Part shown: positions 3,122-14,300 of the stretch, piece after piece | Position numbering within the stretch: the stretch's first letter is position 1 | Layout of the letters: each line of letters opens with the position of its first letter | DNA from: Leadbetterella byssophila DSM 17132 | Lineage (GTDB): Bacteria > Bacteroidota > Bacteroidia > Cytophagales > Spirosomataceae | DNA length: 64,000 nucleotides | Direction of reading: 5' to 3' | Assembly (NCBI RefSeq): GCF_000166395.1 | Contig: NC_014655.1 | Span: forward strand, 2,914,001-2,978,000 | Position numbers and translations under genes: made by a program | The notes under the pieces: model-generated | Database searches by the model: none | The model's input: only the letters and a program-made list of their open reading frames with translations | What the model was told of the DNA's origin: nothing

Positions 3122-3502
3122 ATGGCAGATATTAAAGCTTTTGCTGAACAATTAGTAAACTTAACAGTTAAAGAAGTTAACGAGCTTGCTCAAATTTTGA
3201 AAGACGAATATGGCATCGAGCCTGCAGCTGGTGGTGCAGTAGTAGTTGCTGGTCCTGCAGCTGGTGCTGATGCTCCTGCAGCTGAAGAAAAAACTTCTTT
3301 CGACGTAATCTTGAAATCAGGTGGTGCTAACAAACTTCAAGTTGTTAAGTTAGTTAAAGACCTAACTGGTCTTGGTTTGAAAGAAGCTAAAGAAGTAGTT
3401 GATGGCGCTCCTAAAGCATTGAAAGAAGGTGTTGCTAAAGACGAAGCTGATGCTCTTAAGAAACAATTGGAAGAAGCTGGTGCTGAAGTTGAAATCAAAT
3501 AA
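3122..3502 (+). CDS. rplL: 50S ribosomal protein L7/L12
   Basis: A 126-residue stalk protein that recruits and activates translational GTPases. Order is standard: N-terminal dimerisation/L10-binding helices (about 1-38), an Ala/Gly/Pro-rich hinge (about 39-55, with [13 protein letters not shown]), and the factor-binding C-terminal domain (about 56-126, with [18 protein letters not shown]). It is the last gene of this unit because a strong terminator lies 20 nt after the stop. In most bacteria transcription continues into rpoB, but here rpoB is nearly 8 kb away. Confidence 0.98.
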
Positions 3503-3520
3503 TTTATATATATTTGATAC

Positions 3521-3554
3521 AAAAGACACTGCCAAACGGCAGTGTCTTTTTTTT
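3521..3554 (+). terminator. Strong terminator after rplL and intron insertion site
   Basis: AAAAGACACTGCC (3521-3533) pairs perfectly with GGCAGTGTCTTTT (3538-3550) around an AAAC loop, followed by more T to 3554. The group II intron begins at the next base. Insertion immediately after a terminator stem and T tract is the known target rule of class C group II introns. Confidence 0.9.
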
Positions 3555-4139
3555 GTGTGCCCAGCATGTGCAATAACTCTAGGGTGTAAGTCCCGAACAC
3601 GCCTTTACAGTGGGAAGTGTTAGCTTATGACAAGGGTGTCCACCGTGAGGTGGAATCTGAAGGAAGTCTGAGGCAAAACCTCGATCCGACGAACAGAAAC
3701 TACATACAAGGCCGCAAGTGTTGGGTGAGGCTGCAAAACAAGCCAAAGCCCTAAACTGTACGGAAACACTATGGTAAATGTAGCGGATATATGAGGTGAA
3801 AGTTATTGTTCTTACCTGGGGAGATCTGACTAAACTCTGTCAAAGGTATACGCGAATGCCCGCGAAGAAACATATAGCAGAATAATAATGCTAGTATGCT
3901 TTAGTCAGAAGTCAGCAGAGGACATAGTACCCTGCTTCTCTACTTTATACAGGGGAAGGTCTGAATGTTAGAATGGCAAAGGAACCATGAAGTTTATGAC
4001 GAAGTGTTAAAAGCCGAACCACATAAGAGAACTGCTTGCATGAGGGTAGGTCGGAAACTGATAGTAAAATGCAAGAGGAGCTTAGCTGAGTCGTGCAACG
4101 AAGTGGACACAATGCCTGAGGTTTTTTTTTAGTAATACT

Positions 4140-5414
4140 ATGTTGGAAGAGATATTACACATCCGAAATGTCAAACACGCAGTTGATCGTGTCATCTCTA
4201 ATGGAGGTGCTAGCGGAGTTGATGGTATGCAGATCGATAATCTTCGTGACTACCTTAACACGCACTGGCAATCCCTGCGATCGGATATTCTCTCTGGCAC
4301 TTACCGCCCACAAGCTGTTCGGAAAGTAGAGATTCCCAAAGCAAGTGGCGGCAAGCGTATGCTGGGTATCCCAACGGTCATCGACCGTGTTATTCAGCAA
4401 AGCATTTCCCAATGGCTTGGGTTAAAGTATGAGGGTGATTTTCACGATAACAGCTACGGCTTCCGTCCGAATCGTAATGCTCATCAGGCCGTCATTAAAG
4501 CGCAAGAGTATCTGAACTTGGGCTACACGTGGGTCGTTGAACTTGATTTGGAACAATTCTTCGATCAAGTGAACCACGACATACTGATGCATCTTTTGAG
4601 CAAGAAGATTACGGATCGTCGAGTCCTAGCGCTGATCGGGAAATACCTTCGTTGTGGGATTATGGATCATGGTCTTGAACAAAAGCGAACCAAGGGCACA
4701 CCACAGGGCAGTCCTTTAAGTCCACTTTTGTCAAACATCATCCTGAACGAACTGGATACGGAACTCAGCTCCCGTGGACATCGATTTGTACGTTATGCGG
4801 ATGACTGTAGTATCTACGCGAAGAGCAATAAATCCGCCACTCGTATTATGCGCAACATCACCAGTTACATCGAATCTACACTAAAACTGAAAGTGAACCG
4901 TGAAAAGAGTAAGGTAAGCAAACCTTCCCAAAGTAGTTTACTCGGCTTTAGTTTCTTCAAAACTCAAGGAGATTGGCAGATTCGTATCTCTGCAAAGAGT
5001 ATCGAACGAATCCGAGAGAAGTTACGTCAAAATACTCGACGTAATACAGCTACTCCTATGCATGAGCGACTGACTAAACTACGGCAAATTATTCACGGCT
5101 GGGTGGATTACTTTCGTATAGCAACGAATAAGAAGGTGATGGTAACACTAGATGAACTAGTGCGAAGACGCTTGCGTGTTCTGCTTTGGAAGCAATGGAA
5201 GACCGCAGGTAATCGAATTCGGAACTTAATGAAACTGGGAGCCAAACGCTGGCTTGCCTACCAACATGCGAACACCCGTAAATCCTATACTCGGACAGGG
5301 ACAAGCCCTATCGTTCAAACAACGCTAACAAACTCATACTTTACTAAATTAGGTTACGAAGGATTTGCAGACTACTATTACTGGAGAACAACGCATCAAA
5401 CGACGTTATTCTAA
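4140..5414 (+). CDS. ltrA: Group II intron reverse transcriptase/maturase
   Basis: A 424-residue intron-encoded protein that helps the intron RNA fold and splice and copies it into DNA at a new site. Reverse transcriptase motifs appear in order: GGASGVDGM (22-30), VEIPKASGGKRMLGIP (63-78), YGFRPNRNAHQAV (106-118), ELDLEQFFD with the first catalytic Asp at 136, GTPQGSPLSPLLSNI (186-200) and the catalytic YADD at 219-222. The thumb/maturase domain (GIIM type, about 305-385) includes IIHGWVDYF and ANTRKSYTR. The protein ends at DYYYWRTTHQTTLF with no HNH endonuclease, as in class C elements, which rely on existing DNA structure for entry. All catalytic residues are present. It lies within intron domain IV. 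Confidence 0.95.
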   Translation: MLEEILHIRNVKHAVDRVISNGGASGVDGMQIDNLRDYLNTHWQSLRSDILSGTYRPQAVRKVEIPKASGGKRMLGIPTVIDRVIQQSISQWLGLKYEGDFHDNSYGFRPNRNAHQAVIKAQEYLNLGYTWVVELDLEQFFDQVNHDILMHLLSKKITDRRVLALIGKYLRCGIMDHGLEQKRTKGTPQGSPLSPLLSNIILNELDTELSSRGHRFVRYADDCSIYAKSNKSATRIMRNITSYIESTLKLKVNREKSKVSKPSQSSLLGFSFFKTQGDWQIRISAKSIERIREKLRQNTRRNTATPMHERLTKLRQIIHGWVDYFRIATNKKVMVTLDELVRRRLRVLLWKQWKTAGNRIRNLMKLGAKRWLAYQHANTRKSYTRTGTSPIVQTTLTNSYFTKLGYEGFADYYYWRTTHQTTLF

Positions 5415-5417
5415 CAA

Positions 5418-5450
5418 ACCGCCTTGGTACGGATCCGTATGCCGGGTGGT
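5418..5450 (+). ncRNA. Group II intron domain V (catalytic core)
   Basis: The segment folds as a lower stem (5418-5424 with 5444-5450, including G-U pairs), GG/CC (5426-5427 with 5442-5443), a 2-nt bulge on the 3' side (TG at 5440-5441) and an upper stem TACG/CGTA closed by GATC. The catalytic triad position reads CGC (5420-5422), the class C form, not the AGC of most other classes. It lies 3 nt after the maturase stop codon. Confidence 0.8.
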
Positions 5451-5499
5451 GTGAGAGGACAGATAGGGAAATAATCCCTATCTTCCTACTCGATTACAC

Positions 5500-6347
5500 A
5501 TGAAGAATTTTTTGGCTTACTTTTTTTCTCTCTCCCACTTCAGGCTCAGCAAGAGATTGTTAATGTAAATTATACAAATAACGTACTAAATAGAGATACA
5601 CTGAAGAGTCAAAACCATCACTTCGAGGCCAGTGTCTTGTTCCCTATTTATAAAAATGCTAAGCATCTCATAGGCGGAAAATGGATTTACACTCACGATC
5701 AATTTTCTGGCTTACATCCTCAATTAAACCGGAGTTTACAAGGACTTGATTTGAACTTGCTTTGGAAACTGGCTCTAAATGAGAATTCCAGTATTCAGTT
5801 GGGCTTTTTAATAGGTGCATTCAGTGACTTTAATGCAGGTTCTAAAGACGTTTTACGCTATAGAATTGTGGGTAATTATACTCAGCGCTTTTCAGAAGCT
5901 CTTGTAGCAGGTGTAGGAACGATATATAACCATCACTTTAATGCGCATATGTGGATTCCCATTGCCTCGGTGGATTGGAAGCTAAACAATAGATGGAAAG
6001 TTAGTGGCATGCTCCCTATCAAGCCCAAAATAAGCTATATCATCAAGGATAAGTGGAATTGGGTAAGTGAGGGTGCCGGGCACGCTGAAACGTTTAAAGT
6101 GAAGAAAGCAGTAATAGAACTTACAGGGTGGACCTTGATGAGTTCCCTACAATATACTTTTAAGAAACATCACCGTTTTCAGGCCGGCATTGGTCTAACT
6201 CTCAGTCAACGGTTACGATATTATCAGGAGCCGAAAGAGATGAAGTGGAAATTGTACAACTTTGATATAAAGGCAAATGAAGAACCTTTGGCAGATTTAA
6301 CCACCAAAGGAGGCAGATGGAATGTAGAATACACCTTTTTGTTGTAA
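5500..6347 (+). CDS. Outer-membrane beta-barrel protein (DUF6268-like), signal peptide out of frame
   Basis: The long frame (open from 5475, first possible start TTG at 5637) encodes a protein rich in alternating aromatic strands and ending EYTFLL, the C-terminal aromatic signature of outer-membrane barrels; it resembles DUF6268 proteins. Upstream in the same frame, FSLPLQAQQ is the end of a signal peptide with no methionine. The matching beginning, ATG at 5500 giving MKNFLAYFF, is in another frame and stops at 5568. One extra T in the T7 run at 5521-5527 would join them as MKNFLAYFFFSLPLQAQQE. So the gene is frameshifted, phase-variable by tract slippage, or affected by a sequencing error. 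The ATG is only 5 nt from the intron end, so the intron also separated it from any upstream promoter. Function as a barrel is inferred. Confidence 0.6.
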
Positions 6348-6775
6348 GTAAAGGTATATCTATACTTTCTTCTAAATGCTGAAATCTTTATGGAAGTATG
6401 TTCGAGCATGCTTTCTTACTCGTGGAATAGATGTTTTAATAGAAAATGGGATACTATAACAGGATTTAGCAGCATTTAATGATTGCTTTTTCTCTCTCTA
6501 TGTGCAGAATTTAATCTCCATTTAAAAAGATGTAATTTATCAGAGGACCAAGGAATTTTAAGTTTTGTAGCGACATTCTGTCCCTATTTTCTTGCATTTT
6601 ATCCCAGATTTTTTCCCGATTTCCTCTCCTACTCTACTTTTGTAGCCTATCTCGAAACCGGATAGAACCCTATGCATAAATAATTCCCCTAAAATGAGTC
6701 CTTTTGCAGATCTGCGGCTCTCCCAAACCGTAGATTTGCTTAGGTACAATAAATTCGCATTCATAACTTGCGAAT
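6348..6775. other. Gene-poor gap before the histidine kinase
   Basis: A 428-nt stretch with no convincing gene on either strand; the short frames seen at 6483 and 6558 lack family features or start context. It contains two -7 like elements on the plus strand, TACTTTTG at 6635-6642 and TAGATTTGC at 6731-6739, both pointing at the histidine kinase. No clear terminator for the barrel gene was found. Confidence 0.5.
6703..6739 (+). promoter_or_regulatory. Likely promoter of the TPR histidine kinase
   Basis: TAGATTTGC (6731-6739) is a perfect TAnnTTTGC element. A TTTG at 6703-6706 sits upstream with a 24-nt spacer, longer than ideal. The resulting leader would be about 30 nt. Confidence 0.5.
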
Positions 6776-8446
6776 ATGAAGTGGACCCTATTCCTATTCC
6801 TTACTTTTCCGACCTTCGGACAAATCATTGATCAGGATCTCATATTACTGGATAGCCTTATTCTATATCAGCAATTTAAGACCTGCGATCAGGTCATAGA
6901 TCATTTGCTTCCAGATGCTAATCAAAATAAACAATCCGAACTCAATTTCAGAAAAGCCCTTCTTCTTGAGCGCATAGATAAAAATCATGAAGCTCTAGAG
7001 ATGCTACATTCCCTTGAAAATAAAGCCATTCAGAAAGGAAATTTTGATTTACTCTGTCGTATTTACATTCAAATGGCATTAGGCTATGAGAAGTTAAATC
7101 AATACTCAACGGCCCAAAAATTTCTTGAAAAGGCAGAATTTTGGATAGAAAAATACACTTATTTAAAACCGAAAGTATTGGTAAGAAGAGCTATTCTATT
7201 TTCCCAAAATCCATCTACATGGGACAAAGCTCTGATATCTGCTATGGAAGCGGTCCGCTTAGGCATTACCTACAGAGACAGCGCATCTATAATAGATGGA
7301 CAAATAGTTCAAGGTTCAATATTTTACAAGAAAAAGGAATATGAGCATTCCAATCAGCTCTACAAAGAAGTTTTAAGCCTACATAAACATTTTAATAATG
7401 TTATGGGTAAGCCTGTTATCTATCATAACATAGCTAGGAATTATTTGGGTATGGATAACCTGGAATTGGCAAAAAAGTATAGCGATTCATCATTTGCAGG
7501 CATCCAGGTAGTAAATGACCATTATAAAGAGTTGATTTTTGGACAAAGGGCCGAGTGGTTTTATAAGATGAAAAACCTGGATTCTGCTTATGCCTACCAA
7601 AATGCTAAATATTCAGCCATGGTGGCCAACCTGAATAAAGAAGAGTTAGTTAAAGTGCGGACCATGCAACAGCAATTTGAGAATGTCAGAAACTCCAGTG
7701 TGATCAAAATACAAAAGATCTTCATTGGGGTAGCTGTGGTTCTTATTTTGATAGTTACCTTTTTGTCCATCAAGTTGCTGCGAAAGAATAGGAAAATTTC
7801 TGCTCAAAATGCCCTAATCGCGGGTCAAAGAGATGATCTTCAGGCCTTAGTAGAACAGAAATCCGTACTCTTAAAAGAACTGCAGCATAGAGTAAAAAAT
7901 AATCTGCAGCATGTGATCAGTATTTTGGAGATCCAAAAAGAGGCAGTCAATTTTAGTAATATGGAAGAACTGGTTAGGGAAAACAAAAACCGCATTCATT
8001 CCATGTCTATGCTTTATAGCCGACTAAACAGCTCAGAAGACATTCAATTTGTTAGATTAGAGGAATATTTCTTAAGTCTTGCCCATCTGGTGAGAGATTC
8101 TTATGGTTCTTTGGCTAAGAAAGTGAAGCTTGATATCAGTTGCCAAATGGACAAAATGGAGATCTCCAAAGTCTTACCATTAGGAATGATCTTAGTAGAA
8201 TTAATTTCAAATAGCATTAAACACGCTTTCTCAGATAAGGTAGAAGGTAAAATCTATCTGCACGTATGGCAAGAAGAAAGAAGCTTTAATTTTCTTTATA
8301 TGGATAATGGAAAAGGATATAATTTCAATGAAGTAAGAGAAGGTGCTCTGGGAATGGAGATCATTAAAGGTCTAATTCAGCAGTTGCAAGGCCACGTAGT
8401 TACCCGCAATTCCAATGGATTTGAAATAAAAATAGTGTTTCAATAA
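6776..8446 (+). CDS. Membrane sensor histidine kinase with periplasmic TPRs (HisKA_2)
   Basis: A 556-residue sensor kinase. Signal peptide at 1-16 (ending FPTFGQ), then about 300 periplasmic residues with a helical TPR-like pattern (for example ALGYEKLNQYSTAQKFLEKA), a transmembrane helix at roughly 316-337, a coiled coil, and a HisKA_2 phosphoacceptor region with LQHRVKNN, His at 371. The HATPase domain covers about 460-556, with N-box ELISNSIKHAF (about 473-483) and DNGKGYNF. This family autophosphorylates and passes phosphate to a response regulator. The LytTR regulator starts directly after its stop codon, so the two form a pair. TPRs suggest sensing through protein-protein contact. The signal is unknown; the convergent PKD lipoprotein is a neighbour of interest. 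Confidence 0.9.
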   Translation: MKWTLFLFLTFPTFGQIIDQDLILLDSLILYQQFKTCDQVIDHLLPDANQNKQSELNFRKALLLERIDKNHEALEMLHSLENKAIQKGNFDLLCRIYIQMALGYEKLNQYSTAQKFLEKAEFWIEKYTYLKPKVLVRRAILFSQNPSTWDKALISAMEAVRLGITYRDSASIIDGQIVQGSIFYKKKEYEHSNQLYKEVLSLHKHFNNVMGKPVIYHNIARNYLGMDNLELAKKYSDSSFAGIQVVNDHYKELIFGQRAEWFYKMKNLDSAYAYQNAKYSAMVANLNKEELVKVRTMQQQFENVRNSSVIKIQKIFIGVAVVLILIVTFLSIKLLRKNRKISAQNALIAGQRDDLQALVEQKSVLLKELQHRVKNNLQHVISILEIQKEAVNFSNMEELVRENKNRIHSMSMLYSRLNSSEDIQFVRLEEYFLSLAHLVRDSYGSLAKKVKLDISCQMDKMEISKVLPLGMILVELISNSIKHAFSDKVEGKIYLHVWQEERSFNFLYMDNGKGYNFNEVREGALGMEIIKGLIQQLQGHVVTRNSNGFEIKIVFQ

Positions 8447-9121
8447 ATGAAAAATATTCTCATAGTTGAAGATGATTTCCTTAACCGTCGCCTGATTAAG
8501 AAGGTGCTACAGGAAGAAAATTATAAAGTTCTGGAAGCCATGAGCGCTGATGAAGCTTTGAAGGTGCTCAAATACGAAAAGGTAGATTTGGCTATTCTAG
8601 ATATTCATTTGGGTAAAACAGACGGAATAAGTCTGGGGCATTTAATCAAATCTCAATTCGCCATACCTTTCCTCTATCTGACAGCTTTTGAGACACAGGA
8701 TATAGTAAGAAAGGCCATAGCTACTACTCCAATGGGGTATTTGACCAAACCCTTCAAAAGTGTGGACCTGATAAATACGGTAGAATTGGCCTTAAGGAAT
8801 TCGGAATCCGGCCCCTCCCCTTTTCTTATCGTTAAAGATGAAGACCTGAACGTTAGGGTGCCTCTATCCAGAATCTCATTTTTAGAATCTGACGGTAATT
8901 ACTTGTTGGTTCACTGCGAACATGAGGTATATAGATACAGAAGTACCATTAAACAAGCCATGGATACACTTCCGTCTATCCAGTTTATCCAGACGCATAG
9001 AGCTTTCCTTGTCAACAAAGAAAAAATCAGCCACTTTAACTCTAAGCAGCTGATTGTAGACGGGAAAAGTGTTCCCGTTTCAAAGAATTTCCTTGCCCAC
9101 GTACAAGAAGCCTTGAATTAA
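8447..9121 (+). CDS. LytTR-family response regulator
   Basis: A 224-residue cytoplasmic regulator. Receiver domain 1-118 has the acidic pocket VEDD (7-10), the phosphoacceptor Asp52 in LAILDIHLG, the conserved Thr in YLTAFE and Lys in LTKPFK. The LytTR DNA-binding domain covers about 125-224 with the typical ISFLESDGNYLLVH and QTHRAFLVNKEKI segments. Its ATG follows the kinase stop codon with no gap, so it is co-translated with the kinase at 6776. Targets cannot be read from this window. Its last 4 nt overlap the end of the convergent PKD/PQQ gene. Confidence 0.93.
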   Translation: MKNILIVEDDFLNRRLIKKVLQEENYKVLEAMSADEALKVLKYEKVDLAILDIHLGKTDGISLGHLIKSQFAIPFLYLTAFETQDIVRKAIATTPMGYLTKPFKSVDLINTVELALRNSESGPSPFLIVKDEDLNVRVPLSRISFLESDGNYLLVHCEHEVYRYRSTIKQAMDTLPSIQFIQTHRAFLVNKEKISHFNSKQLIVDGKSVPVSKNFLAHVQEALN

Positions 9122-10950
9122 GGATTTTGTCCTGTAGATCCGGGGTACCAGGATTTCCCATCTTTGCCTATTACGGTAATATCTCCCGAGCTTCCCTGCA
9201 CATTCGTCCGGAAGATCACTTGCCCATTCTTAGCATCAAGTGCTAGTAACTCACTAGAACTGCCCTTATTATCTGTGACATATACAATGTCATTGGCATA
9301 GGTAACATTCCTCGAACTAAAATTGGACCCATTAAATGACCAATTTTCAGCACCATTTCCTTTATTTATGGAAAGAACTTTGCTGCGTGCAGTGATATAG
9401 AAGGTGTTTCCTATTAATACAGGGCTTGCTTTATGGTCACTAGTACCTAAGTTAACAGACCAAATATCAGCATTATTGATCACATCAATGCGCTGGAAGA
9501 CATTTCCATCTACAACTCCAAAGATATGCTGGTCGCTTACGATAGGACTAGAGTTCTGAATCTGCTTGAAGGAATATGCTATCAAGCCTTCATGCCCGGA
9601 GCCCTGATGCTTGTTAAGGATATGGATACCTACGGAACCGCCGAAATATACGTAGTTCCCTGAGATCTGAGCCTTAGTATTCATGGAGCCTCCATAGGTC
9701 CCTCTTTGCCAATGGATACTTCCATTTGAAGCATTTAAAGCATAGAAGATTCCGCCACCTCCACTTGAAGGTGCATGAGTTCCTACGTATAGGATTTGGT
9801 TGTCCAGGATGACACTGGCGCTGATTGCGGAGGCAACAGGCGTACTCCAAATCACGTTCCCATTTGAGGCATTAATAGCATAGACATGATGGTTATTTGA
9901 ACCAAAATACACTCGTCCGTCTTGAACCAAAGGGCTTCCAGAAGAGCCTGCATTGTATCTCCATCTAACGTTTCCATTTGAAGCATCTACCGCATAAAGA
10001 TGAGTATTGGTGCAGAAATAGAGTGTGTTACCCACTGCAGTAATGGCGCCTTCTATCCTACCCTCGTATCCGTCTCTTGCCCATTTAAGTTCACCGGTGG
10101 AAGCATCTAAAGCTTCAAGGATAGTCTTATTAGTAAACGTACTTAGGTATAGGGTTTGGTTTGCTGTACTTGGTCCTAAGCCGGTGACGCTAACGGTCTT
10201 TTCTATTACGTGCTGTTCAAAAGTATTTGCTGCTGTTAATTTGACAATATAACTACCGTTACTCTTATAGGTGTGAACAGGATGATATTCTAGGCTGGAT
10301 GCTCCATCTCCAAAATCCCAGATGAAGGAATCAGCATTCGCGGAGCGGTTAGTAAAGCTCACTTTCCCTTTGTCTATCACAAAAGTGAAATTGGCTTCAG
10401 GGGGCAAAACCTGAGTTAAAGCAAGATTTTGCGAACTGGAATGTTCCCCAAACTCGTTCGTTACTTTTAGGGAAACCGTATAGTTTCCATTGTTTTTGAA
10501 GGTATGTGTGGGGTTTATTGCATGGGATTTTTCTCCGTCGCCGAAATCCCAATGGTGCTCTGTAGCAAAGCTGGCACTGCTTTTAAACTCTACCACTCCC
10601 CTACTTTTGATTTCATAGGTAAATTGTGAAATAGGTTTTGTGATATCAGAAACCTCTAGATTTTGAGATGTTGAAACATTTTGATTAGCCGACTTTACGG
10701 TCAGGGTTACTTTGTAACTTCCATTATTGTCATATTTGTGCAAAGGATTAGCTTCACTGGAAGTTTTACCATCTCCAAACTCCCATTGATAACTATCAGC
10801 ATTGGTCTCTTTGCTAGTGAATTGTACAAGATTTTTGCTTTGAAATTGAAAAGTAAATTCAGCTGAAATCTCTTCCTTTTTAGATGGCGAATCACTTTCT
10901 GTACACGCTGATAATAAAAGTAATATGAGTGGGAAAAGTAACTTTCTCAT
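9118..10950 (-). CDS. Surface lipoprotein with three PKD domains and a PQQ-like beta-propeller
   Basis: A 610-residue lipoprotein. The signal peptide ends in a lipobox LLSAC with the lipidated Cys at 16, followed by an acidic spacer. Three PKD modules follow at about 30-98, 106-178 and 184-255, each with the W(E/D)FGDG core (positions about 56, 134 and 211). From about 262 to the end runs a PQQ-type propeller with repeats such as ALDASTGELKW, AVDASNGNVRW and AINASNGNVIW. PKD modules usually present or space a binding domain at the surface and such propellers often bind proteins or polymers without cofactor; both points are family knowledge. A near-consensus minus-strand -7 element (GCAAAGTAA at 10967-10975, one mismatch) precedes it. 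It converges on the two-component genes with a 4-nt overlap. Substrate unknown. Confidence 0.88.
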   Translation of the reverse strand: MRKLLFPLILLLLSACTESDSPSKKEEISAEFTFQFQSKNLVQFTSKETNADSYQWEFGDGKTSSEANPLHKYDNNGSYKVTLTVKSANQNVSTSQNLEVSDITKPISQFTYEIKSRGVVEFKSSASFATEHHWDFGDGEKSHAINPTHTFKNNGNYTVSLKVTNEFGEHSSSQNLALTQVLPPEANFTFVIDKGKVSFTNRSANADSFIWDFGDGASSLEYHPVHTYKSNGSYIVKLTAANTFEQHVIEKTVSVTGLGPSTANQTLYLSTFTNKTILEALDASTGELKWARDGYEGRIEGAITAVGNTLYFCTNTHLYAVDASNGNVRWRYNAGSSGSPLVQDGRVYFGSNNHHVYAINASNGNVIWSTPVASAISASVILDNQILYVGTHAPSSGGGGIFYALNASNGSIHWQRGTYGGSMNTKAQISGNYVYFGGSVGIHILNKHQGSGHEGLIAYSFKQIQNSSPIVSDQHIFGVVDGNVFQRIDVINNADIWSVNLGTSDHKASPVLIGNTFYITARSKVLSINKGNGAENWSFNGSNFSSRNVTYANDIVYVTDNKGSSSELLALDAKNGQVIFRTNVQGSSGDITVIGKDGKSWYPGSTGQNP

Positions 10951-11089
10951 GATTGATGTGTTAGTGGCAAAGTAATTATAACCATTTCTAACTTTATAAA
11001 AAAGGCCGGTTTAATTTTCTAATCAATTTTTAATCTTATAGTGGCTTTAAGTGTCTCGAATTAAATTTCTTAATATACTAATCAAAAAC

Positions 11090-11121
11090 TTGCATTTGTC
11101 GACAGGATTAAATAATTTTGC
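11090..11121 (+). promoter_or_regulatory. Promoter of rpoBC
   Basis: TAATTTTGC (11113-11121) matches TAnnTTTGC exactly, with TTG at 11090-11092 and a 20-nt spacer. It gives rpoB-rpoC an independent start about 190 nt upstream of the coding region, replacing transcription from the rplK promoter. Confidence 0.7.
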
Positions 11122-11194
11122 ACTCTTTTGGTGCAAAGTAAGGAAACATTTATTATACGCACGTATTAAGTGGATTACCTACAAACCACCATTT

Positions 11195-11293
11195 ATGCCC
11201 GAGACACTTCGACCTTTCGTAGGGGTTGATGCAAAGGGGTCTTCACTGCGATTTTTTCTGACAATGCGCTTATTGTCAGCATTTTTTCAGTAG
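11195..11293 (+). CDS. Possible leader peptide upstream of rpoB
   Basis: A 32-codon frame with an ATG at 11195 and TAG at 11291-11293 lies wholly downstream of the rpoB promoter and runs straight through the terminator-like hairpin at 11258-11287. Translating ribosomes would melt that hairpin. No clear ribosome-binding site is visible and the amino-acid sequence has no recognisable family, so this may be chance. It is listed because of its position relative to the hairpin. Confidence 0.2.
   Translation: MPETLRPFVGVDAKGSSLRFFLTMRLLSAFFQ
11258..11287 (+). terminator. Terminator-like hairpin in the rpoB leader (candidate attenuator)
   Basis: CTGACAAT (11258-11265) and ATTGTCAG (11272-11279) form a perfect 8-bp stem with a GCGCTT loop, followed by CA and six T. 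It ends 30 nt before rpoB and lies between the rpoBC promoter and the coding region, so it must be read through for the polymerase subunits to be made. Stem GC content is modest, so partial termination is plausible. Confidence 0.6.
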
Positions 11294-11317
11294 TTAAACA
11301 TTAAAACAATTTAAACC

Positions 11318-14300
11318 TTGAAATTGACAGAAACCGGAAGGAAGTCCTTTGCAAGTGTTCAGCCCGCGTTAGAATATCCTGATTTTCTGGATATCCAATT
11401 GCAATCATTCACAGAGTTTTTCCAGATTGATACACCTGCTGAAAGCCGCAGAGCGGAAGGCTTGTATCAAACTTTCATGGATAACTTCCCGATTGCAGAC
11501 TCGCGCGAGAACTATGTGCTAGAGTTTGTGGATTACACCATTGACCAGCCAAAATACTCTGTAGATGAGTGTATCGATAGAGGTTTGACGTATTCTGTAC
11601 CATTGAAGGCCAAATTAAAATTGACCTGTAATGACGCAGACAACGAGGATTTTGAGACCATTGAGCAGGAGGTTTTCTTAGGAAACATCCCTTACATGAC
11701 CTCAAGAGGTTCTTTTGTGATTAACGGAGCAGAGCGTGTTATCGTTTCTCAGCTTCACCGTTCTCCGGGTGTGTTCTTCTCTATGAGTAAGCATACAAAC
11801 GGAACGAAGTTGTATTCTGCACGTGTGATCCCAATGAAAGGATCTTGGATCGAATTCTCTACTGACGTGAATAACGTCATGTATGCGTACATTGATCGTA
11901 AGAAGAAGTTTCCAGTGACTACACTACTTCGTTCTATTGGATTTGGAACGGATAAAGAAATCTTGGATCTCTTCGGACTATCTGAAGAAATCGCGGCTAC
12001 TCGTGATAACTTGAAGCAGGTTGTGGGTAGAAGATTAGCAGCAAGGGTGTTGAAAACTTGGACAGAAGACTTCGTGGATGAGGATACTGGTGAAGTAGTA
12101 TCTATTGATCGTAACGAGGTTATCTTGGAGAGGGATTCCGTTATCACTGAGGACGATGTAGAATTGATCCTTAGCACAGAATTAAAGTCGGTTATCCTTC
12201 ACAGAGAAGATGCCAACGTTTCTGAGTATAACATTATCTACAATACATTACAAAAAGATAGCTCTAACTCGGAGAAGGAAGCGGTGGAACAAATCTATCG
12301 TCAACTTCGTAACACTGAAGCTCCGGATGAAGCTACAGCGAGAGAGATTATCCAAGGTCTGTTCTTCTCTGACAAGCGTTATGACTTAGGAGAAGTAGGA
12401 CGTTACAGAGTAAATACCAAATTGAATTTGGATACTCCACTAGAGACTAGAGTTCTTTCTAAAGAGGATATCATCTCTATCGTGAAGTATTTGATCGGTT
12501 TGATAAACTCTAAAGCAGTAGTGGATGATATTGACCACTTATCTAACCGTCGTGTACGTACCGTAGGAGAGCAGTTGTCCGGACAGTTTGGTGTAGGTCT
12601 AGCCCGTATGGCCAGAACCATCAAAGAAAGAATGAACGTTAGAGATAACGAAGATTTCAAACCGGTAGATTTGATTAATGCAAGAACCTTGTCTTCTGTA
12701 ATCAACTCGTTCTTTGGTACTAACCAGTTGTCTCAGTTCATGGATCAAACGAACCCATTGGCGGAGATCACTCACAAACGTCGTCTATCCGCTTTAGGAC
12801 CTGGTGGTCTATCCAGAGAAAGAGCAGGTTTCGAGGTTCGTGACGTTCACTATACGCACTATGGTCGTCTTTGTACTATTGAAACTCCTGAAGGTCCAAA
12901 CATTGGATTGATTTCTTCGCTTTGTACTTATGCGAAAATCAACTCTATGGGCTTCATCGAGACTCCATATAACAAGATTGAAGACGGTAAGTTGACCGGA
13001 AAAATCGAATACCTAACGGCTGAAGAGGAAGATGGTAAGAACATTGCCATGGCTACTGCAGATGTAAATCCTGATGGAAGCTTTACAGTAGATACTTTGA
13101 AATGTCGTTACGAAGGTGACTTCCCAATGAAGTCTCCAGACGAGATCGAGTATATGGACATCGCTCCTAACCAGATCGTATCTATTGCGGCATCTATGAT
13201 TCCTTTCTTGGAGCATGATGATGCTAACCGTGCTTTGATGGGATCGAACATGCAGCGTCAAGCAGTGCCTTTACTTCGTCCTGAAGCTCCAATAGTAGGT
13301 ACTGGTTTGGAAGGTAAATTAGCTCGTGACTCCAGAACGCTAGTTGTAGCAGAAGGAGACGGGGTGATTGACTATGTAGATGCTGAGAAGATCGTAGTGA
13401 ACTATGACTGGACAGATAACCAGAAATTAGTAAGCTTCGATACGAACTTCACTACTTATAAATTAATCAAGTTCCGTAGAACTAACCAGGATACATGTAT
13501 TAACCTTCGTCCTATTGTATTAAAAGGACAAAGAGTTAAGAAAGGACAAATCCTTGTAGAAGGTTATGCTACTCAGGGTGGTGAACTTGCTCTAGGACGT
13601 AACCTTCAGGTAGCGTTCATGCCTTGGCAAGGTTATAACTTTGAGGATGCCATCGTAATCTCTGAACGTGTGGTTCGTGAAGATATCTTTACTTCCATCC
13701 ACATTGAGGAATTTGACCTTGAAGTACGTGATACGAAGAGGGGAGAGGAAGAATTAACTTCTGAAATTCCAAACGTATCTGAAGAAGCAGTTAAGAACCT
13801 GGACGAAAACGGTATAGTACGTGTAGGTACTCACATCAAAGAAGGTGATATCCTTATCGGTAAGATTACTCCTAAAGGAGAGTCTGATCCAACTCCGGAA
13901 GAGAAGCTATTGAGAGCTATCTTCGGTGATAAAGCCGGTGATGTGAAAGATGCTTCTAAGAAAGCACCTCCATCTCTAAGAGGGGTGATCATTGATACCA
14001 AACTCTTCTCTAGACCTTCTAAAGAAGAACGTTTGAAACACAAGGAGGAAGTTAAACGTCTGATGGTAAAACACAGCAAAGACCTTTCTGCCTTGAAAGA
14101 AGTAATGATTGATAAAATGGTAACTCTATTAGACGGTAAAACTTCTAATGGTGTGAAACATAAATTCGGAGAAGAACTAATCTCTAAAGGAGTTAAGTTT
14201 AACCGTTCGAACATTACGAATAACCTATTCCCAGAGAAAAACCCATTTGTGGATGAAAGCACTTATAACGTGCCTGAAGAAGCAAACTTATTGGGTGATA

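Follow-up and report, generated by a model that had tools for sequence, protein, structure and literature searches.

Group IIC introns such as B.h.I1 and GsI-IIC encode a protein (IEP) with reverse transcriptase (RT) and maturase domains and without an endonuclease, insert directly behind intrinsic terminators and favour the strand that is the template of lagging-strand synthesis. In excerpts of a survey, terminator insertion is reported chiefly for class C and the closely neighbouring g6, U1 and U2, and the lagging-strand-template orientation bias for class C (PMC8919778); this survey, PMC4424553 and PMC3522654, each in excerpt, form our literature basis, and Robart et al. 2007 is cited through them. 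The intron described here resembles B.h.I1 and GsI-IIC in all three properties. It is unlike the group IIC introns covered by those excerpts in having 19 copies in one genome, two exact head-to-tail pairs, and six insertions behind genes for rRNA, tRNA, rnpB or ribosomal proteins.

An intron directly behind the rplL terminator

The window, that is, the whole stretch of 64,000 nucleotides analysed, holds the following features around the intron.

3122..3502, + strand: rplL (ribosomal protein L7/L12), the gene upstream of the intron (open reading frame list and annotation)
3521..3554, + strand: intrinsic terminator of rplL, serving as 5' exon and landing site (stem-loop 3521-3550, T-tract to 3554)
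3555..5494, + strand: complete intron, assigned to group IIC, GTGTG...CGAT, 1940 nt (copy comparison; the RF00029 alignment ends at the same 3' end)
3639..3810, + strand: match to Rfam group-II-D1D4-3 (161.8 bits)
3735..3740, + strand: candidate EBS1 (AAAACA) in a hairpin loop inside the D1D4-3 match (computed loop position, putative role)
3877..3961, + strand: match to Rfam group-II-D1D4-1 (49.5 bits)
4140..5414, + strand: intron-encoded reverse transcriptase/maturase (IEP), 424 aa, without endonuclease domain (domain and profile searches)
5419..5449, + strand: domain V, CGC at 5420-5422 (RF00029 alignment and fold)
5453..5494, + strand: domain VI and 3' end, with a bulged branch A candidate at 5488 (fold and RF00029 alignment)
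5495..5495, + strand: first 3' exon base, T (T in 18 of the 19 copies of this genome; putative IBS3)

The sequence-only reading of this locus had placed an intact group II intron at 3521-5494, on the rplL terminator. The D1D4-3 and D1D4-1 matches and the RVT_1 and GIIM domains bear out the intron, and its end at 5494 fits; the start does not, as 3521-3554, a stem of 13 pairs (3521-3550) followed by the T-tract, is 5' exon, and the intron proper begins at 3555 with GTGTGCCC. This is the base directly after the T-tract, which ends at 3554, just where the GTGTG had been reported. IBS1 would lie within the T-tract of the terminator, and the candidate EBS1, AAAACA, is complementary to this T-rich sequence. 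Weak matches to small RNAs over the rplL terminator fell below their cut-offs and were read as lookalikes with a hairpin plus T residues.

A covariance-model search, proposed earlier as a check on ends and class, was clear for the D1D4 families and fell short for domains V and VI: RF00029, the domain V/VI model, aligned over its full length (1-77 of 77) to 5417-5494 at 27.7 bits against a curated cut-off of 40 (E 3.3e-4, from a 91-base search), and was absent from the result tables of the whole-window search and of a 2.3-kb search. Domain V starts CCGCC, with what we take to be the 'CGC' triad at 5420-5422. When the intron and five relatives with IEPs 42-85% identical were aligned by hand (L054 and L051/L052 left out of the count), five of the 12 pairs of the hand-drawn domain V changed on both sides yet kept pairing; 71 of 72 cells held standard pairs, and one did not. 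Computed folds matched the drawn structure in outline, L035 excepted. The CGC-type domain V of the sequence-only reading is upheld by these comparisons, and its branch A has a candidate in the fold; the catalytic RNA domains of a group II intron, domains V and VI included, are represented.

The IEP carries the RVT_1 and GIIM (maturase) domains, and its domain search listed no endonuclease family. It scored 410 bits against TIGR04416 (group_II_RT_mat; cut-off 300), the level of an RT/maturase. The RT predicted earlier is present, and of the RT motifs claimed for it YADD was individually checked and confirmed. Among solved structures the closest protein was the GsI-IIC RT (427 bits, against 129 for LtrA of class IIA and 103 for 6me0 of class IIB).

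Nineteen copies in one genome

A DNA search of the genome, a single contig of 4.06 Mb, returned 19 copies of the intron, 98-100% identical. The window copy (L001) and two others (L002 and L003) are letter-identical over 1940 nt; the two most distant copies differ at 48 of 1943 alignment columns when gaps are included. The 424-aa frame is uninterrupted in 17 of 19 copies, with an early stop in L008 and L012. Two types can be told apart, a minority of L017-L019 and a majority of 16 copies. Variants are shared in blocks among copies, which suggests gene conversion, and by its sequence the intron appears to have multiplied recently. L003 has A, not T, as its first 3' exon base; the longest flanking frame is antisense on each side of this copy, which is still co-directional with replication.

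Insertion sites and orientation

Every outermost copy (17/17) passed, at its exact insertion point, a fixed hairpin-plus-T test which 1324 of 797600 positions (0.17%) passed in a control of 400 kb of the same genome; neither of the two inner tandem junctions did (0/2). Pfam and Rfam matches place the following upstream of the 17 sites: rplL, L17, two rRNA operons (5S), a five-tRNA cluster and RNase P RNA; catalase, isocitrate dehydrogenase, FKBP, an outer-membrane efflux protein, a radical-SAM protein and nitroreductase; and a GFO/IDH oxidoreductase, an FGE-sulfatase-domain protein, a histidine kinase and one small protein that has no family. Genes for rRNA, tRNA, rnpB or ribosomal proteins precede 6 of the 17 sites (P 6e-6 to 3e-4, for an excess noticed post hoc and with a background class assumed at 40-80 of an extrapolated 1349 terminators). 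The three rRNA operons share the same 5S terminator, which is empty in one (L097), holds one intron in another (L096, intron L012) and two in the third (L095, introns L019-L005); the T-run is 8 at the empty terminator versus an inferred 9 at each occupied one.

By sampled GC skew, intron orientation follows replication in 19/19 copies. Of 20 sampled stretches, those from 3.0 Mb across position 0 and on to 0.8 Mb had positive skew, apart from one sample of the wrong sign (-0.022 at 0.2 Mb, near copies at 0.1-0.27 Mb), and those at 1.0-2.8 Mb had negative skew. The positive part holds the 11 plus copies (2.909-3.514 and 0.028-0.274 Mb), the negative part the 8 minus copies (1.046-2.853 Mb). Within the window (2.914-2.978 Mb), 7 of 8 segments have positive skew. 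Strong terminator sites were co-directional with replication in 72 of 133 cases in a 400-kb sample, against which 17/17 for the introns gives P 2.9e-5. High expression commonly goes with a gene orientation that follows replication, so this strand bias and the excess of six sites in 17 are not independent. The skew changes sign between 2.82 and 2.91 Mb, next to the window, and this switch is taken as the likely origin. The dnaA gene (G000:C1:474) lies far from this switch, and the origin is therefore placed by skew alone.

An IEP nearest to IIC proteins, the lack of an endonuclease, insertion at terminators and orientation toward the lagging-strand template are the properties of class C, and support assignment of the intron to bacterial class C (IIC), with IEP likeness measured against solved structures. 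Class and terminator targeting had both been proposed earlier, and each has gained from the protein comparison and from the contrast of 17/17 sites with 1324/797600 control positions. That an intron of another class (e.g. IIB, D or E) sits at terminators by chance would fit the RF00029 score below cut-off, and the D1D4 family names alone do not give a class; we consider it very improbable, given that the GsI-IIC RT is ahead of LtrA by about 300 bits, that the IEP is without an endonuclease domain, and that placement at terminators, 17/17 here, is in the survey excerpts a trait mainly of class C and of the closely neighbouring g6, U1 and U2 (PMC8919778). Membership of one of these three neighbours is possible.

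The rplL copy and its neighbourhood

Insertion between ribosomal-protein and RNA polymerase genes had been judged a high-impact position, a view that we do not share: the terminator is intact ahead of the intron, and rpoB starts at 11318, 5.8 kb past this copy, which is one of 19. Four genes lie between, namely a DUF6268 frame, a histidine kinase, a LytTR response regulator and an antisense PKD/PQQ protein. With an intact terminator and four genes before rpoB, concern about readthrough from rplL into rpoB has little to act on, though some effect of the intron on readthrough is possible. The whole gap from rplL to rpoB measures 7.8 kb (3503-11317). In 7 of 9 same-genus relatives rpoB is within about 0.34-0.48 kb of rplL; it is displaced also in G004 (about 7.9 kb) and in G005 (about 5.0 kb), the latter with a PKD protein of 55% identity at that position. 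The DUF6268 open frame (5495-6347) extends back into the intron end, and the ATG at 5500, the first to follow the intron, stands in a different frame from the remainder.

The location behind rplL and the intact IEP could be taken to mean that this copy was domesticated and retained for tuning readthrough from rplKAJL into downstream genes. We find this hardly credible: the copy is letter-identical to two copies elsewhere and so too young for divergence under local selection, there are 16 other sites, and the next frame encodes a DUF6268 protein rather than rpoB.

Two terminators with head-to-tail pairs

Two terminators hold a pair of introns, L018-L011 and L019-L005, in which a single T lies between the CTTGAT end of the first intron and the start of the second. 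If the intron is taken to end in GAT, this T belongs to the exon, and the pair corresponds to two insertions one base apart in one T-tract. An assembly error is possible as a source of such pairs, although their members differ at 43 and 48 columns. The upstream member is of the minority type (L017-L019) and the downstream member of the majority type in both pairs.

This arrangement of types would fit a newer intron landing behind an older one and taking its domain VI, which forms a short-tailed hairpin, for a terminator. We regard this order as unlikely, because the junction fails the terminator test, none of the majority-type copies (0/16) carries another copy behind it, and the upstream terminator hairpin is an intact normal target; in other respects domain VI as a terminator mimic is compatible with our preferred account. 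Insertion of the upstream member second requires just the normal target, whereas insertion of the downstream member second needs the mimicry, and neither order alone accounts for two of the three minority copies sitting in pairs.

When 395 genomes of the phylum (Sphingobacterium genomes apart) were searched for the head-to-tail junction, with a pattern built from this intron's own ends, it was found at nine places; two are those in this genome, and the other seven had no intron sequence in the 70 bases checked on each side. The pairs recall bacterial twintrons, in which one group II intron is inserted at another, and are unlike the nested twintrons described in the excerpts of PMC4424553 in that the introns stand side by side with one base between them. 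We recognised no head-to-tail class C pairs in titles and abstract beginnings of the papers inspected on tandem, nested or terminator-linked introns, which is no proof of their absence from the literature.

Relatives and empty sites

The same intron family occurs in Sphingobacterium alimentarium, S. cavernae, S. litopenaei and others, mostly behind hairpins, and its closest copies there are 95-97% identical in DNA (S. alimentarium 96%), so that the element is the same. The Sphingobacterium host proteins are far more distant, at 72-73% identity for rpoB (first third of the protein) and 49-52% for rplJ; the rpoB stretch compared within the window's own genus is about 94% identical. Since 96% DNA identity of the intron stands against 72-73% protein identity of rpoB, the intron moved horizontally. 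From these distances between introns and between proteins we infer that the host lies outside the family of Sphingobacterium. In a tree restricted to full-length copies (23 rows, four from other genomes), the 19 copies formed one clade (98/97) adjoining the two full-length S. alimentarium copies. Sphingobacterium genomes also carry relatives at 71-90% identity, whereas the DNA search of this genome listed copies at 98-100% only; given these more divergent relatives, it is simpler to suppose transfer from the Sphingobacterium side than towards it. The intron may also have come from a third donor.

Of the readable Sphingobacterium 5' ends, 14/17 passed the terminator test and 3 failed; both readable ends from other bacteria (L032 and L025), 70-73% identical in DNA over their 5' parts, failed. 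One S. litopenaei copy (L128, G169:C59:1571-2161) joins query positions 178-651 to 1822-1940, with most of the protein gene missing. At the protein level, matches to the IEP were found in 3/149 other genomes of a family sample (E 1e-100, 43-54% identity) and in 3/394 of a phylum sample (E 1e-120, 48-66% identity, the 66% match spanning residues 1-284 only). The 596 plasmid records at E 1e-80 or better were all under 60% identity, so no plasmid vehicle was found among them; viral contigs gave 0 matches to any peptide pattern.

The sequence-only reading had called for a search for the empty site in related genomes. In 9/9 same-genus relatives the rplL terminator is without an intron (hairpin identified by eye, no intron in the 330 bases behind rplL), and in the intron's own genome the rRNA terminator L097 is an empty counterpart of two occupied ones. 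In 6/6 Sphingobacterium genomes rpoB is too close behind rplL for an intron to fit. A search for the empty rplL site by way of the downstream DNA matched none of the other 38 genomes in a set of 39 at the DNA level, and the downstream region was found at the protein level in 2/149 other family genomes, at 29% identity.

Discussion

Together these data make it very probable that the rplL copy belongs to a recently active group IIC mobile intron which was acquired horizontally and multiplied to 19 copies behind terminators. A Sphingobacterium-like host would have been the source of the intron or an intermediary; entry was probably a single event, with multiplication afterwards. By analogy with published work on class C, its ribonucleoprotein is expected to recognise the terminator hairpin and a few bases of the T-tract, through EBS1-IBS1 and EBS3-IBS3 pairing, and to reverse-splice into the strand serving as the template of lagging-strand synthesis; the intron would then be copied by its own reverse transcriptase, presumably from a replication-fork primer, since it is without an endonuclease.

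After insertion the hairpin and T-tract remain intact upstream, so a site can stay usable. Class C introns may be without target immunity, such that an occupied terminator is still a full target and copies can stack head to tail within a single T-tract; terminators belonging to the operons with the strongest transcription (rRNA, tRNA, rnpB, rplL, rplQ) may be favoured because heavy transcription, or encounters between fork and transcription, expose the target. We offer this as a tentative proposal that has somewhat less than an even chance of being right.

The rplL copy is one of nineteen and otherwise ordinary, and the element is of a well-known kind; the mechanism of class C terminator insertion itself is already established. 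The horizontal move relative to Sphingobacterium, the two pairs separated by one T, and the 6/17 sites at rRNA, tRNA, rnpB or ribosomal-protein genes are modestly new. The genome provides a well-resolved case, in a single contig, of distant horizontal entry followed by a burst to 19 copies with consistent choice of terminator and strand, and its empty paralogous site and two re-used terminators lend themselves well to tests of whether class C introns re-use their targets.
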